Of a stretch of DNA of 64,000 nucleotides, positions 53,940 to 59,526 are shown in pieces (position 1 is the stretch's first letter; each line of letters opens with the position of its first letter). Origin of the DNA: Cryobacterium sp. PH31-O1 (lineage in GTDB: Bacteria; Actinomycetota; Actinomycetes; Actinomycetales; Microbacteriaceae); NCBI RefSeq assembly GCF_030063455.1, contig NZ_JASITB010000002.1:1-64000 (forward strand), in the 5' to 3' direction. The notes under the pieces are model-generated. The model saw only the letters and a list, made by a program, of their open reading frames with translations, did no database searches and had not been told where the DNA came from. A program made the position numbers and the translations under genes.

Positions 53940-54399
53940 TCAAATGTGGGCTAGTTCTTTGAGCCTATCGAAGTGCGTTTGGGATGGCTCCCAATTGCGC
54001 GATTCGCGGGGTCGGGCGTTGATCTTGGCGGCGACTTCAGCCAGGCGTTCGGGGCTGTGGAGGTTGAGGTTGGTGCCCTTGGGGAAGTACTGCCGAACGA
54101 GTCCGTTGGTGTTCTCGTTGGAGCCTCGTTGCCATGGTGAGTGTGGGTCGCAGAAGTAGACGGGGATCGTCGTGTTTTCTTTGAATTGGTGGTATTCGGA
54201 CATCTCCGATCCTTGGTCCCAAGTCAATGTTTTCCGGAGGTGGGCTGGCAGGGCGGACATCGCTGCTCCGACCCGTTTACGGACCGTGACGGCATCGTGT
54301 TTGTCTCCGAGGTGCACGAGTATAAGGAAACCGGTGGTGCGTTCCACGAGTGTGGCGATCGCCGATCGGTTGAACGCTCCGCAGACGAGGTCGCCTTCC
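53940..54399 (-). pseudogene. IS30 transposase, C-terminal (catalytic) piece
   Basis: Encodes the DDE core: GDL (first Asp), TWDQGSEMSEY (second Asp) and RGSNENTNGLVRQYFPKGTNL (Glu). All three residues are intact, so the transposase was complete before insertion. The stop is at 53940. The upstream half of an apparent longer frame here belongs to IS110 sequence. Confidence 0.9.
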
Positions 54400-54439
54400 T
54401 TACGTTGTTGTGGTGGGTGATTTCGGGACTGTCGTAGTG

Positions 54440-54600
54440 TGTCGATCACCCTCGGGTGGCGGGTATGGCTGAGATCGCCTTGCCGCATAAACGGCTCACT
54501 GGGAATGGCCGCCCGCTGCCCGCAGATGACTAGACCGCTGATTGAGAATTGCGACATTGATCGCTAGGTAAGGACGTGCCGGCGTGGTTATCGACAGGGA
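54440..54600 (+). ncRNA. Putative bridge RNA of IS110 element 1
   Basis: In the left non-coding end, segment TCGCCTT (54475-54481) equals the left half of the IS30 target up to TT, and CACTGGGAA (54497-54505) matches the reverse complement of the right half at 8 of 9 positions. Further on, ATTGAGA (54541-54547) equals the element's own right end, and GTAAGGA (54568-54574) is the reverse complement of its own left end. Order (left target, right target, left donor, right donor) is that described for IS110-family bridge RNAs. RNA limits are approximate and no transcript is shown. Confidence 0.75.
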
Positions 54601-54633
54601 AACTGCTATCAACGAGACGGAAGGAACCTTCAG

Positions 54634-55839
54634 ATGCCAGCAGTATGGGCGGGAATTGATGCAGGAAAGCGGGCGCATCACTGCGTCGTGATCGACCAGA
54701 CCGGGAAGACACTTCTCTCCCAACGGATAGATAACGACGAGACCGTGCTGCTCGAAATCATCGCCACGGTCACCGAGATCGCCGATGGGCACGAGGTCGT
54801 ATGGGCGACGGATTTGAACTCAGGCGGCGCAGCTCTCCTCATTTCCCTGCTGGCCGATCACGGCCAGCAGCTGCTCTATATCCCGGGCAGAATCATTCAC
54901 CATGCGGCTGCGACCTACCGCGGTGAGGGCAAGACAGACGCGAAAGATGCCCGAATCATCGCCGATCAGGCACGGATGCGCACCGACCTCCAACCCGTTC
55001 GCGAGGGTGATCAGATCAGCGTTGACCTCAAACTCCTGACCGCTCGACGCCTGGACATCATCCACGACCGGGTGCGCGCAATCAATCGGCTCCGCGCGAC
55101 CATGCTGGAGTACTTCCCCGCGCTGGAGCGCGCGTTCGACTACTCCAAAAGCAAAGCCGCTCTCACGCTCTTATCGACCTACCAGAGGCCCGGAGCGCTT
55201 CGCCGGATGGGAGTGACGCGTCTGGCGGCATGGTTGAAAGCCCGCGGCTGGCGCAACAGCGCCACCGTCGCCCAGAAAGCAATCGACGCCGCGCGTGAGC
55301 AAGAAACGACGTTGCGCACCGAGATTGTCGCCGCCACCCTTGTGTCGCGCCTGACCGCCGTGATCACCGCGATCGACGCGGAGCTGGGGGAACTCGACGC
55401 GACCATCACCGCCCGGTTCAACGAGCACGAGAACGCCGAGATCCTGGAAAGCGTGCCCGGCTTCGGCCCCATACTCGCCGCAACCTTCCTCGCAAACATC
55501 GGTGGAGACCTCCGTAATTTTGAGAACGCCGATCGACTTGCCAGCGTGGCAGGCGTCGCACCAGCCCCCAGAGACTCCGGTCGCATCAGCGGCAACCACC
55601 ACCGGCCCCGCCGATTCAACCGGCGGCTGTTACGCACTTGCTATCTCGCAGCACTATCAAGCTTGAAGAACAGCCCCGCCTCCAGGGCTTACTACGACCG
55701 AAAGCGCCGCGAAGGGAAAAACCACAAACAGGCGCTGCTCGCTCTCGCCCGGCGACGCATCAACGTCCTCTGGGCAATGCTGCGCGACCACACCCTCTAC
55801 CAGGAACCAGCCGACATCCCGATGCTCAAAATCGCTTGA
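54634..55839 (+). CDS. IS110-family transposase (recombinase) of element 1
   Basis: A 401-residue recombinase with the N-terminal RuvC-like DEDD domain (WAGIDAGKRAHHCVVID, EVVWATDL, GKTDAKDARIIADQ) and the C-terminal Tnp domain (ESVPGFGPILAATFLANIGG, VAPAPRDSGRISGNHHRPRRFNRRL, where the Ser in RDSG is a candidate nucleophile). The length is normal and the frame is intact, so it may be active. GGAAGGAACC precedes the ATG. In this family the enzyme recombines DNA guided by an RNA from the element end. Confidence 0.93.
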   Translation: MPAVWAGIDAGKRAHHCVVIDQTGKTLLSQRIDNDETVLLEIIATVTEIADGHEVVWATDLNSGGAALLISLLADHGQQLLYIPGRIIHHAAATYRGEGKTDAKDARIIADQARMRTDLQPVREGDQISVDLKLLTARRLDIIHDRVRAINRLRATMLEYFPALERAFDYSKSKAALTLLSTYQRPGALRRMGVTRLAAWLKARGWRNSATVAQKAIDAAREQETTLRTEIVAATLVSRLTAVITAIDAELGELDATITARFNEHENAEILESVPGFGPILAATFLANIGGDLRNFENADRLASVAGVAPAPRDSGRISGNHHRPRRFNRRLLRTCYLAALSSLKNSPASRAYYDRKRREGKNHKQALLALARRRINVLWAMLRDHTLYQEPADIPMLKIA

Positions 55840-55869
55840 CAAAGACTGTGAGTCTTGGGGTGGCTGGTC

Positions 55870-56143
55870 CGGGACTGGCTGGCAGAGTTGGTGTTGGTCG
55901 CTCCGCCGTGGTCGTGACTCATGACAAAACTGGCCCCTCGCGGGTGCCTTGCCTATGAACTGTCCGGCCGTGGTGGGTGACCGACGCCGGCCCGGCCCAC
56001 CTCAGTGGCTTAATAAGAAGCATGCCCGATCCGTGCGGATCGTGGCTCATCACAGTTCTGCCCCGAAGTGATTCCTCTCCGGATCGGCGCCGGTCGTCAG
56101 CGACTGGATCATCGCCCATCTCAAAGAAAGGAACCCGGACACT
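55870..56143 (+). ncRNA. Candidate bridge RNA region of IS110 element 2
   Basis: Long structured non-coding stretch before the transposase, with hairpins such as CGATCCG-TG-CGGATCG at 56027-56042 and GGTGGG/CCCACC around 55972-56001. Tentative donor matches: AGAAGC near 56015-56020 with the element's right end, and CCCGAAG near 56065-56071 with the reverse complement of its left end (one mismatch). Target guides could not be assigned, so this call is weaker than for element 1. Confidence 0.45.
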
Positions 56144-57223
56144 ATGGACACCATAGTTGCGCACACTCATCCGTTCGTTATCGGCGTGGACACGCACGCC
56201 AGAACCCACACCTACGCTGTCCTCACGGCGGCAGGTCAGCACCTCGGAACCGAAACGTTCCCCAATACCGGCGCTGGTCGATCCCGCGCAATCAACTGGG
56301 CCGGGCGTCGCTCTGGCGGCGTCACCGATGCGCTCTGGGTGATCGAGGGAGCCGGGAGCTACGGCGCCCAGCTGGCCCGCAACGTAGCAGACACCGGCTA
56401 CCGTGTTGTTGAGGCCGCACGCATGGGCCGGACGGGCCGGCGCGGCATTGGGAAGTCCGACCCCCTCGACGCACGTCGGATCGCCGCCGCTGTGCTGGCC
56501 CTACCGGTCAATCAACTCCGCACCCCGCGGCAGGATGAGGGCGTGAGGGCAGCAGCGCAAATCCTCCTGACTGCCCGCGATGGACTCGCCGCTGAGCGCA
56601 CCCGCGCGGTGAACGCACTCACCGCATTACTTCGGATTATCGACCTCGGCATCGACGCCCGACGTCCCCTCGGAGCACGCAAGATCGCCGAGGTCGCGCG
56701 CTGGCGCACACGAGAAGAAGCCCTCGCCGCGACCACCGCGCGCACAGAAGCAATACGTCTAGCCAAACGCATCCTCGAGCCCGACGCGGAGCTCGGCCAA
56801 AACATGACGCGTATTAGTGACCTCGTCGCAGCGAGCCCTGCAGCCGAGCTGCTGGAAAAAACTGGTATCGGTCCCGTCACCGCAGCCAGAACACTCGTCG
56901 CGTGGTCCCACCCGGGCCGGGTCAAAAGCGAAGCCGCTTTCGCCGCGATCGCCGGCGTGAATCCAATTCCCGCATCATCAGGCAACACCACACGGCATCG
57001 ACTAAACCGTGGCGGAGACCGCCAACTCAACCGTGCCTTGAATATCATCGCGATGGTCCGAATGGTCCACGACCCGGGAACACACAACTACGTCGAACGC
57101 CGACGCGCTGAGGGAAAGACCGACCGAGAGATCCGCCGCATCCTCAAACGCTACCTGGCCAGAAGCATCTACCGGCACCTCAACACCGCGTCAGCCACAA
57201 AATTGGGGGTTGACGAGATATAG
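56144..57223 (+). CDS. IS110-family transposase (recombinase) of element 2
   Basis: A 359-residue recombinase of another IS110 subgroup. RuvC-like domain: PFVIGVDTHARTHTYAVL, LWVIEGAGSYGAQLAR and GKSDPLDARRIAAAVL; Tnp domain: EKTGIGPVTAARTLVAW and GVNPIPASSGNTTRHRLNRGGDRQLNRAL. Frame intact. AAAGGAA lies about 10 bp before the ATG. Only distantly related to the enzyme of element 1, so the two came separately. Confidence 0.92.
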   Translation: MDTIVAHTHPFVIGVDTHARTHTYAVLTAAGQHLGTETFPNTGAGRSRAINWAGRRSGGVTDALWVIEGAGSYGAQLARNVADTGYRVVEAARMGRTGRRGIGKSDPLDARRIAAAVLALPVNQLRTPRQDEGVRAAAQILLTARDGLAAERTRAVNALTALLRIIDLGIDARRPLGARKIAEVARWRTREEALAATTARTEAIRLAKRILEPDAELGQNMTRISDLVAASPAAELLEKTGIGPVTAARTLVAWSHPGRVKSEAAFAAIAGVNPIPASSGNTTRHRLNRGGDRQLNRALNIIAMVRMVHDPGTHNYVERRRAEGKTDREIRRILKRYLARSIYRHLNTASATKLGVDEI

Positions 57224-57241
57224 AAGCTTCATTGAGATTCC

Positions 57242-57477
57242 CAATGCCCAGGAACGACCCGGTCGTCGACCTCGGCGGGCCGCTCGTCTAGGAGCGGGCC
57301 GGAAAATCTCGAGCGCCTTGCGGTGCTGCTGCGTCGCGGTAGTCGTCCGCGCCGGCCCGTGCGCAGGTGACGGGTCATCTCCCGGGTCAGACCGTGGTTC
57401 TGCGGCGAATACAGGGCCTGGTAGATACTCTCATGCACGACGTTCATCGCGGGCTGGCCGGGGTAGTCGACGCTCTG
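57242..57477 (-). pseudogene. IS30 transposase, middle piece
   Basis: Encodes VHESIYQALYSPQNHGL, a LTREMTRHLRTGRRGR segment and RPAEVDDRVVPGHWE. It is bounded on one side by the IS481-like element (target duplication CGCTC at 57473-57477) and on the other by the IS110 right end. The final GHWE joins EGDL of the third piece when the IS110 elements are removed. Confidence 0.9.
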
Positions 57478-58919
57478 TTAACGCCGGGCCAAAATAGGGC
57501 CAATAGTGCCGTTTGAAAACAGGACCACTATCTGTGTTTTCTACTGTAAGGCCCGGGGACTTCCCTGACACTTCGTGGTCAGGACATGCCTGACAGTTTA
57601 TACTTCGGGTGTTTCAACTGGGGGCTGCGGGACCTTCCGGGGTCGGCCGCGTTTGTTGCCGTTGCCGTGGTAGGTGCCGACGGGGCCGAGGTCGACGATC
57701 TCACGGAGTAGTCGTCCGTCTTGGACGAGGTGCACGGTGACGAAGTTTTTCGCTTCGGTGACGCGGACTTTCTGACCCGACAGCGGCATCCCGACGTTGA
57801 TCCGCCGCCTGCGGTATTTGATCGAACCGCTGGCGGAGACAATCAGGACGCGTGGTCCGGTGTTTCCTCCGCGGCGCACGTCGCTGGGGGTCATCTTCCG
57901 CGATGCGTCGTAGACGACTGCGGGCGTCTGTTGGTTGAGGGCGCGGTGTGGTCGTTCGTGGTTGTAGTACCAGCGGAATCGGTCGCACAGTGCTTGCAAT
58001 TCCTCGATCGTGGCGGCGGGGCCGTTGTCGGCATAGAACTCTTTGAAGGTGCGGTGGTAGCGCTCGAGCTTCCCGCAGGTCTGCGGGTGTCGGGGTCGGG
58101 AGGTGGATGTTCAGCGCGGCCAGGCGCTCCTGGAAGAATACGGGCTTCTGGCCTTTGCGGGATTTGAATTGCAGCCCGTTGTCACTAATCAGCTGCCGTG
58201 GCACGCCGTGCTCGGTGATCGCGGTGTCCATCGCCTTCCACGCTGCATGCACCGTGAAGCGCCGGACGGCGGTTGCGCCGATCGCATAGCGGGCATGGTC
58301 GTCGAGCAGGTCGACGATCCACGCTTTCGAGCCGTCGGCCAAAGCAACCATAGTGCCATCGATCTGCCACAGATCGTTCGGGGCATGACGTTCGAACCGC
58401 TTCCATTCCTTCGGCGCACGGTGTTCCTGAGCCACGACGAGACCGTGCCGTTGCAACACCCGGTGGATCGTGGACACGACCGGCGGGCGGGCCAGACCGG
58501 CCTGCACCAGTTTCGTGTGCAGGGTCCGCGCGCCCCACCGCGGATTATCGACACGCAGTTTGACGATCAACGATTCGATCTCGGACGCCGTTCTCGACGG
58601 CGAGGTTGTCGGCCGCGTCGACCGCGGTTGCAGTGCAGGGACTCCCTCGGACCAGAGTCGCCGTCGGTATTCGTAAAACGACTGCCGGGATATGCCATAC
58701 CGGCGACAAGCCGCAGCGACGCTGATGCCGTCGCGTTGCGGGGTCAACAGGATTTCAAGCCAACGCTCGTTCACACTCATCACTCTCATTCAAAAAGAGT
58801 GTCAGGGATGTCCCGCGTACAACCTGTCAGCGATGTGTCCGGGCCCTACACCCTCCATAGTGGCGGGTGGCCCTGTTTTCAATCGGCGATACTGGCCCTA
58901 TTTTCGGTCGGCGTTAACA
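57478..58919 (-). mobile_element. IS481-like element inserted in the IS30 transposase gene
   Basis: 1442 bp with inverted ends of about 50 bp starting TGTTAACGCCG (57478 inward and 58919 inward), both containing AAAATAGGGCCA and TTGAAAACAGG. CGCTC is duplicated on the flanks (57473-57477 and 58920-58924). Subterminal GGACAT-CCTGACA-like repeats lie inside both ends and may bind the transposase. Confidence 0.92.
57598..58789 (-). pseudogene. IS481-like transposase with a frameshift
   Basis: An integrase-core enzyme: N-terminal helix-turn-helix (ISVAAACRRYGISRQSFYEYRRRL), then DLWQIDGTMVALADG, WIVDLLDDHARY and LISDNGLQFKSR (DDE Asp residues). The frame changes in a run of four C on the coding strand (58092-58095); deleting one C gives the expected RHPQTCGKLERYHRTFKEFY text, which continues in the second frame to LCDRFRWYYNHERPHRAL and the stop at 57598. 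The break suggests an inactive copy, unless the run is a sequencing error. Confidence 0.85.
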
Positions 58920-58924
58920 CGCTC

Positions 58925-59457
58925 AGCTGGTAGCTGATCTGGCGCGGGCTCCACTGTTCTTTCAGCAGCTTCTGGACCGCATCGCGCAAGGTAGTGCTTG
59001 CAGCGATCTTGCTCTGTCGAGGACGTTTCCGGGAAGCGTCGGCGACCACCTGGGCAGCTCGGGGAGCGTAACGCTTGGAGCGCAGGGTCAGATTGCGCCG
59101 CACCTCTCGGCTGATGGTGGAGGGGCTTCGCCCGAGTGCTGCGGCGATCATTCGCAGCGACGACCCGGCGTGAAGGGCGTCGGCGATCCGGACACGCTCG
59201 TCAGCGGAGAGATACCGCGGCGAGATGACGGTGGCAGCGATTCGGGAGATTGGGGCGTAAGTGGTCTCGCGGCCGTGCGCCTTTTTCACGGTCCGGCCGT
59301 GCCTCCATCGCATCCCCGTTCGGCGGTTGATCTTCAACATTCGGCACGCCTCAGCGTTGCTGATTCCTTGCTGCATCAACCGAGCATATTCAGCGCGGGT
59401 CTCGGTCATCGGCAGCGCGCCGGTGCCCTTTTTGCGGGTTCTTGAATTGTCTGACAT
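58925..59457 (-). pseudogene. IS30 transposase, N-terminal piece
   Basis: Starts MSDNSRTRKKGTG and contains the helix-turn-helix regions typical of IS30: ISNAEACRMLKINRRTG and LGRSPSTISREVRRN, then KEQWSPRQISYQL. It is cut after this by the IS481-like element. With the insertion removed the text continues SVDYPGQPAMNVVHESIYQ, as expected. Confidence 0.9.
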
Positions 59458-59476
59458 CGCTACTCCTGAAACTCCG

Positions 59477-59526
59477 GTGATGCGACGATGGCTGGAATAC
59501 GCCCCGTTCCTCATGGCCCTTGACAG
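59477..59526. repeat. IS30-family right inverted repeat
   Basis: Partner of 53886-53935. It lies 41 bp upstream of the start of a lipoprotein gene, so the element may influence that gene's expression. Confidence 0.85.

Follow-up and report, generated by a model that had tools for sequence, protein, structure and literature searches.

A stretch of 64,000 nucleotides from Cryobacterium sp. PH31-O1 (contig NZ_JASITB010000002.1, positions 1 to 64,000 of the forward strand; hereafter the window) carries an IS30-family transposase gene that is split by an insertion sequence of the IS110 family, element 1, and element 1 in its turn harbors a second IS110-family element, element 2, within its right end. 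We regard it as very probable that the left end of element 1 codes for a bridge RNA directed at the IS30 site, and that element 2 belongs to a clade specialized in the right ends of other IS110 elements, the two parts together accounting for the locus. The bridge RNA of element 1 is of a kind known since 2024; the advance beyond this lies in the nesting rule of element 2.

Under this joint explanation, the left end of element 1 would be transcribed into an RNA with two internal loops. The guides of the first, the target loop (54453-54522), would each pair with one half of a site in IS30 transposase genes, and those of the second, the donor loop (54525-54592), with the right and left termini of the element itself. 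A DEDD recombinase of 401 amino acids (aa) would use this RNA to join the circular form of element 1 to the IS30 site. Element 2, with a putative bridge RNA of its own, would have entered the right end of element 1, with a TTGACA box on one side and the donor heptamer on the other; such right-end sites in other IS110 elements would be the speciality of its clade. The insertion would have removed the -35 box of the circle promoter of element 1 and left the donor site in place.

Architecture of the nested insertion

The interrupted IS30 gene lies on the minus strand. Its 3' part, with an rve domain (a Pfam match in the open reading frame (ORF) 53940-54557), occupies 53940-54395, and its upstream part resumes beyond the insert (54396-57241) at 57242-57484, the outer end being approximate. 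When the flanks were joined in silico, they yielded a single open IS30 frame of 231 aa, with the motif PGHWEGDLV spanning the site; the label IS30 comes from this motif and from the annotation of the corresponding place in L092 (relatives are referred to by L and G handles where they need to be told apart). Read on the plus strand, as are all features of the two elements given below, the left target half CGAGGTCGCC and the shared bases TTCC (54396-54399) together form 54386-54399 (CGAGGTCGCCTTCC); on the right a second TTCC (57238-57241) is followed by the right target half CAATG, up to 57246, the sequence from 57238 onwards being TTCCCAATG. The predicted target of element 1 lies in the codons for the HWEGDL motif of the IS30 transposase, the Asp of which we take to be the first D of the IS30 DDE.

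The insert carries two ORFs, of 401 and 359 aa, each with both IS110 domains (PF01548 and PF02371) and with IS621 and ISCro4 as PDB counterparts. The first, ORF1 (54634-55839), is the recombinase of element 1; it scores 157.9 bits against DEDD_Tnp_IS110 (cut-off 29) and 74.9 bits against Transposase_20 (cut-off 21.3), its DEDD assignment being a Pfam domain match. The corresponding scores of ORF2 (56144-57223), the recombinase of element 2, are 68.1 and 67.3 bits. In comparisons of ORF1 with the IS621 and ISCro4 structures in the PDB (e.g. 8wt6) the significant match covers the C-terminal part only. A C-terminal serine is conserved, with DSG (S315) of ORF1 aligned to ESG of IS621, and we take the serine of this alignment to be the catalytic one. 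The genome has a single full copy of either ORF, its remaining matches being those of the two ORFs against each other. Genomes of the genus carry copies of element 1, and the flanks of these resemble flanks in Cryobacterium records (L154 and L005).

Element 1 has the layout of the IS110 group and not that of the IS1111 group: a non-coding left end of 234 nucleotides (nt) precedes the ORF (54400-54633, the boundary drawn by comparing L005-L017 with the window), and in L005 the distance from the stop codon to the TTCC end is 18 nt. The left end of element 2 measures 297 nt, and the right ends of both elements are very short. In three relatives with 95% protein identity to element 1 (L005, L006 and L007) the right end reads TGACAAAGAC-ATTGAGATTCC uninterrupted, at a place where the window has 1,384 bases of the second IS110 element. 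This element 2 spans 55847-57230, with a C shared at 55846/57230, and its ends are conserved in L093, L161, L162, L166 and L167 (left 78-99% and right 82-99% identical). What is left of the right end of element 1 consists of the TTGACA box at 55836-55841, recognized by the position of TTGAC in relatives, and, on the far side of element 2, the donor heptamer ATTGAGA with TTCC at 57231-57241. A first-pass annotation, made from the window's letters, had read the ends of IS110 element 1 at the two sides of 54396-57241 and proposed an intact guide RNA locus. The ends it gave do frame element 1, but the stretch is not a single element: two IS110 elements lie between them, as L005-L007 lack 55847-57230. 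All four guides are present, but intactness is doubtful because the TTGACA box of element 1 is now cut off by element 2 from what remains of that right end, so that the joined ends have ATAGAA at the -35 place.

The bridge RNA of element 1 and its family

Four short segments of the left end of element 1 correspond to the IS30 site and to the element's own termini. The left target guide AGATCGCCTT (54472-54481) matches AGGTCGCCTT (54388-54397) at 9 of 10 positions, as judged by eye, and the right target guide CACTGGGAA (54497-54505) matches the reverse complement of 57238-57246 at 8 of 9. The left donor guide ATTGAGA (54541-54547) is identical to 57231-57237, which belongs to the right end of element 1, and the right donor guide GTAAGGA (54568-54574) is the reverse complement of TCCTTAC at 54397-54403, a match made in the window only. 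All four had been noticed in the first-pass annotation, which gave the left target guide in the shorter form TCGCCTT (54475-54481) and aligned the right donor guide with the left-end start CCTTAC (54398-54403); the coordinates of all four proved exact, and every one of the four matches occurs once only within the left end (54404-54633; one mismatch permitted for the right target guide). In dinucleotide shuffles of the left end the guides arose singly in 1.1%, 2.8%, 1.8% and 1.1% of cases and all four together in 0 of 20,000 (the product of the rates being about 6e-8), although, the segments having been picked after looking, this figure is an indication and not a strict p-value.

The behavior of the guides across the family supports this reading. 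From 75 family records we set aside 7 with no usable left flank; the 68 kept included 61 unique records and 39 guide types. Over these types the left target guide scored a mean of 7.10 against its own left flank, compared with 4.25 under permutation, and none of 20,000 permutations reached the observed value (maximum 5.26). Removal of flanks ending in CYTCC left 25 types with a similar separation (7.32 versus 4.39 permuted, maximum 5.52). For the right target guide, the comparison used the 52 of 75 loci with a recognized right end plus the window, which the left-flank pattern had missed and which was added by hand; here 21 types gave 7.95 versus 4.39 permuted (maximum 5.90), a match that may partly fall in the shared core. 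Clear instances of agreement between guide and flank are AAAAGCTAAA (L032 and L036) and TACAGCGCTC (L043). Among close copies, identical guides mostly accompany the same IS30 motif, and identical guides at unrelated targets were not seen as a pattern; more distant copies occupy different targets and carry different target guides that match them. The left donor guide follows the element's own right end, being equal to the right-end heptamer in 53/53 copies with a recognized end (ATTGGGA in 26, ATTGAGA in 24 and ATGGGGA in 3). The search patterns admitted only such heptamer variants; what is informative is that the variant in the guide is also the variant at the end. A survey of copies proposed in the first-pass annotation came out in its favor, the target guides varying with the flanks and the left donor guide going with the end. 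Separately, four copies of one Streptomyces ipomoeae element (L061-L064) have the same guides; their sites are all different, each containing CATG, and the distance between match and junction shifts among them.

The same annotation had called for covariance folding of homologous left ends. An alignment of 35 sequences yielded 35 consensus pairs, of which 15 are changed on both sides, and 97.6% of cells are paired. No shuffle among 500 equaled it on either measure, and sliding the alignment by 1-3 columns reduced pairing to 26-51%. The four guides fall into two internal loops, the target loop lying 5' of the donor loop. The predicted target-binding stem-loop (54453-54522) comprises helix 1, with 9 of 16 pairs changed on both sides, and helix 2 inside it, the two target guides lying on opposite sides of a small hairpin; the donor guides are likewise arranged within the predicted donor-binding stem-loop (54525-54592; helices 3 to 5). 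Taken together, the flank co-variation, the invariable agreement of the donor heptamer and a consensus fold with compensatory changes bear out the earlier suggestion of a bridge RNA of the IS110/IS621 type with its target adjoining it. An Rfam search of the window gave zero matches at gathering scores, and in a scan of viral contigs for close relatives ORF1 had two hits, both distant, and ORF2 had none.

The right ends of the family also share a promoter-like feature. That IS110 circles form a promoter where their ends meet is already established (PMC11208160). In 49 of 50 loci with their own heptamer after the ORF (25 records with no own heptamer or ORF were left out), TTGAC occurs within 25 nt before the donor heptamer, at a spacing of 5 nt in 45 and 6 nt in 4, as against a background of 1.5% of 25-nt stretches. 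When the ends were joined by script, TTGACN was followed by TANNNT exactly 17 base pairs (bp) on in 47 of 51 relatives, these having been found by a pattern that itself includes TTGAC. In the composite of the window the joined ends give ATAGAA at the -35 place, and the reconstituted promoter would therefore be absent while element 2 is present.

Element 2 and the right ends of other IS110 elements

The left end of element 2 has the makings of a second bridge RNA. Its consensus fold shows the same loop order with a much longer first stem, and has 72 pairs, 25 of them changed on both sides (0/500 shuffles). The left target guide TGACAAA (55922-55928) matches TTGACAAA at 55836-55843, in the TTGACA region of element 1, and the right target guide CTATGAA (55953-55959), identified by eye, has the reverse complement TTCATAG, to be set beside the junction TTCATTG. 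As probable donor guides, on sequence grounds, we note AGAAGC (56016-56021; left), which matches the element's own right end at 57222-57227, and TCACAG (56050-56055; right), the reverse complement of CTGTGA at 55846-55851. In the family of element 2, the left target guide agrees with its own flank over 15 types (7.27 versus 4.13 permuted, maximum 6.07 in 20,000), the guide having been shortened by script for four Cryobacterium copies. When the ends of element 2 itself were joined, inspection by eye found a TTGACG box in its right end and no TANNNT at 17 bp.

Element 2 separates the TTGACA box of its host from the donor heptamer, and a census of 66 scored family copies indicates that this position recurs. 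Copies with a guide of the class TGACRRM lie after an IS110 coding sequence and TTGAC in 13 of 15 cases, the exceptions being L178 and L187. Among the copies with other guides, TTGAC is found in the last 18 nt in 0/51 and an IS110 coding sequence upstream in 1/51 (Fisher p 5e-12 for the contrast, with copies that are not independent events). That single copy, L096 from a Mycolicibacterium chubuense plasmid, is a relative of element 2 with another guide, placed directly after an IS110 gene lacking the TTGAC box.

The hosts are varied. Those of the element 1 type are found in the window, G078 (73% identical) and G874 (92%); others are an IS110 element 35% identical to ORF1 in G875, one 54% identical on a Streptomyces plasmid (L167), and an ORF2-related one on an Arthrobacter plasmid (L095). 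A Pfam IS110 domain was detected in four hosts. Six hosts were compared at the far side of element 2. In five of them (the window, G078, G874, G875 and L167, but not L095) the adjoining heptamer or hexamer recurs in the left end of the host itself, as a host donor guide would. The guides TGACAAA, TGACAGA, TGACAAC and TGACGAA are found at TTGACAAA, TTGACAGA, TTGACAAC and TTGACGAA, respectively; TGACAAA also occurs at boxes differing by one or two bases, namely TTGACGAA or TTGACGGA in L181, L195 and L203, and TTGACAGA in L182. The right guide TTCATAG fits the junctions of G875, L181, L182, L184, L195 and L203. Between the window and G078, element 2 is 98.5% identical in DNA and the host ORF only 72%, so that element 2 has probably moved separately; the most likely reading of these sequences is that it inserted independently at one and the same position in different hosts. 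In G874 the composite of elements 1 and 2 (L161) has an IS30-like flank as in the window and frame breaks in both recombinase genes.

A further proposal concerns what such nesting does to the host, and we put it forward tentatively, at somewhat less than even odds. The clade of element 2 may consist of RNA-guided hyperparasites, whose bridge RNA reads the TTGACA box and donor boundary of other IS110 elements and which unplug the circle promoter that makes the host's bridge RNA. By sparing the donor heptamer and core, they would leave a host with its guest still mobile through recombinase and RNA supplied by another copy.

Weighing the explanation

Several observations sit awkwardly with the joint explanation and have to be set against it. 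On the side of element 1, the single-sequence fold of its RNA is unremarkable (z -1.28; 24/200 shuffles equally good), and 23 of the 75 family loci have no right end by the rule used. The left guides of L030, L091, L010 and L157 score no better than those of strangers, and the right flanks of L015, L040 and L092 fit the right guide poorly. All three have an IS30-type left flank; on the right, L015 and L040 read TTCCTTA and L092 has extra bases. In the IS30-targeting group (22 records) the three most variable guide columns are those opposite synonymous positions in the codons for Asp, Gly and Glu; here the guides have no clear preference for their own site, agreeing at 0.51 versus 0.43 under permutation, a value that 14.5% of permutations equaled or exceeded (17 distinct combinations out of 22 records). 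That the guides adapt to synonymous variants in the IS30 site they occupy is therefore unsupported, and element 1 seems tolerant of synonymous variation in its target.

On the side of element 2, 35 fetched loci went unscored in the census: 7 repeats of a scored place, 1 with no left flank and 27 with no left end by the rule. Some of the queries used to recognize IS110 genes upstream were derived from nested loci, the IS110 identity of the hosts resting on host comparison and Pfam. The two exceptions, L178 (G1044) and L187 (G1371), have a guide of the TGAC class at sites outside IS110 right ends. By eye, the targets have 7 to 11 nt between TGAC and the junction, and the guide has TGAC at a fixed position, where a strict pairing register predicts otherwise; either a bulge is tolerated in the pairing, or the register is determined by the core and the right side. 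Finally, the junctions of the window, G078 and G874 fit TTCATAG only at TTCAT. Of this, TTC probably belongs to the end of element 2 itself, so the comparison with the target comes down to ATAG of the guide versus ATTG in the window.

The alternative that survives best, although we judge it improbable, is that element 2 lies at IS110 right ends not by virtue of a guide but through a general preference of insertions for such ends, as hot spots, or through inheritance of one composite. The composites of the window and G874 are similar enough (90.6% over the element 1 ORF) to share one ancestral composite, and some copies share a genome or plasmid (L195 with L203; L093 with L167), so the events are fewer than the copies. 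Against this, the hosts are as much as 92% and as little as 35% identical to ORF1, and one of them is ORF2-like; the left guides differ together with the host box in several cases, though not in L181, L182, L195 and L203; and family members that carry other guides are located elsewhere, none of the 51 next to TTGAC.

We give still less credence, and very little in absolute terms, to 54396-57241 being one element that encodes two cooperating IS110 recombinases. The ends and guides of element 1 do frame both ORFs, and the ORF pair occurs again in G078 and, with frame breaks, in G874. Against this, ORF2 is absent from L005, L006 and L007; element 2 has a left end, guides and right end of its own; copies of its type follow hosts unlike element 1 (G875, L167, L181 and L184); and host and guest diverge differently (72% versus 98.5%). 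On these four counts we rejected it. Least credible of all is the notion that the four matches in element 1 are chance, or leftover end duplications such as a target-site duplication or sub-terminal repeats: the segments are indeed short and chosen after looking, and the single-sequence fold is no help, but the joint shuffles speak against chance, and duplications would produce neither co-variation with the flanks (39 and 21 guide types) nor compensatory pairing, so that this reading too was rejected.

Relationship to known systems

The resemblance of element 1 to the IS621 system, as presented by Durrant et al. 2024 (PMC11208160), extends to a DEDD/Tnp_20 recombinase, a long left end with an RNA, target and donor internal loops, and a promoter across the joined ends. 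The sites differ: those of IS621 include REP (repetitive extragenic palindromic) elements, according to the same paper, and those of element 1 are IS30 genes with the shared bases TTCC. A parallel in target choice is ISEc21, an IS110-family element with an upstream non-coding RNA that, in the account of Siddiquee et al. 2024 (PMC11187229), targets codons around a catalytic Asp of other IS transposases, specifically the second D of the DDE in IS3-family genes; element 1 would do so at the HWEGDL codons of IS30 genes. The same text describes a relative of ISEc21, ISMch6, as naturally redirected. A Kocuria strain has both an IS110 element and IS30 elements, which are not linked to each other in the passages available from PMC12500396.

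The core of IS621 is CT, compared with the shared TTCC of element 1. A DEDD element of the IS1111 group specializes in the ends of other mobile elements, its host being a Tn21-family transposon. Element 2 is comparable in that it specializes in mobile-element ends, and differs in that the end it enters is that of another IS110 element, where it parts the TTGACA box from the donor heptamer. Among the open-access titles and abstract openings listed, no report of an IS110 element targeting the right ends of other IS110 elements was found, which is weak evidence of absence.

For element 1 the raw sequence of a single locus sufficed to read the bridge RNA. Its relatives have targets as different as IS30 codons and sites containing CATG, and so provide pairs reprogrammed by nature; in their joined ends the promoter spacing is a regular 17 bp. 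The family further suggests that guide mismatches are tolerated at synonymous positions and that the spacing from match to junction is loose, both of which would bear on off-target rules. If the clade of element 2 is indeed aimed at the control and donor region of RNA-guided elements, it would present a case of natural competition among programmable recombinases.

The surroundings of the IS30 remnant are themselves crowded with mobile elements. An rve/HTH transposase gene adjoins it, in a minus-strand frame at 57701-58789 (region 57598-58789, including an overlapping frame at 57598-57999), and an HTH_38 fragment at 58879-59514 is next in line, the whole forming a pile-up beside the interrupted gene.

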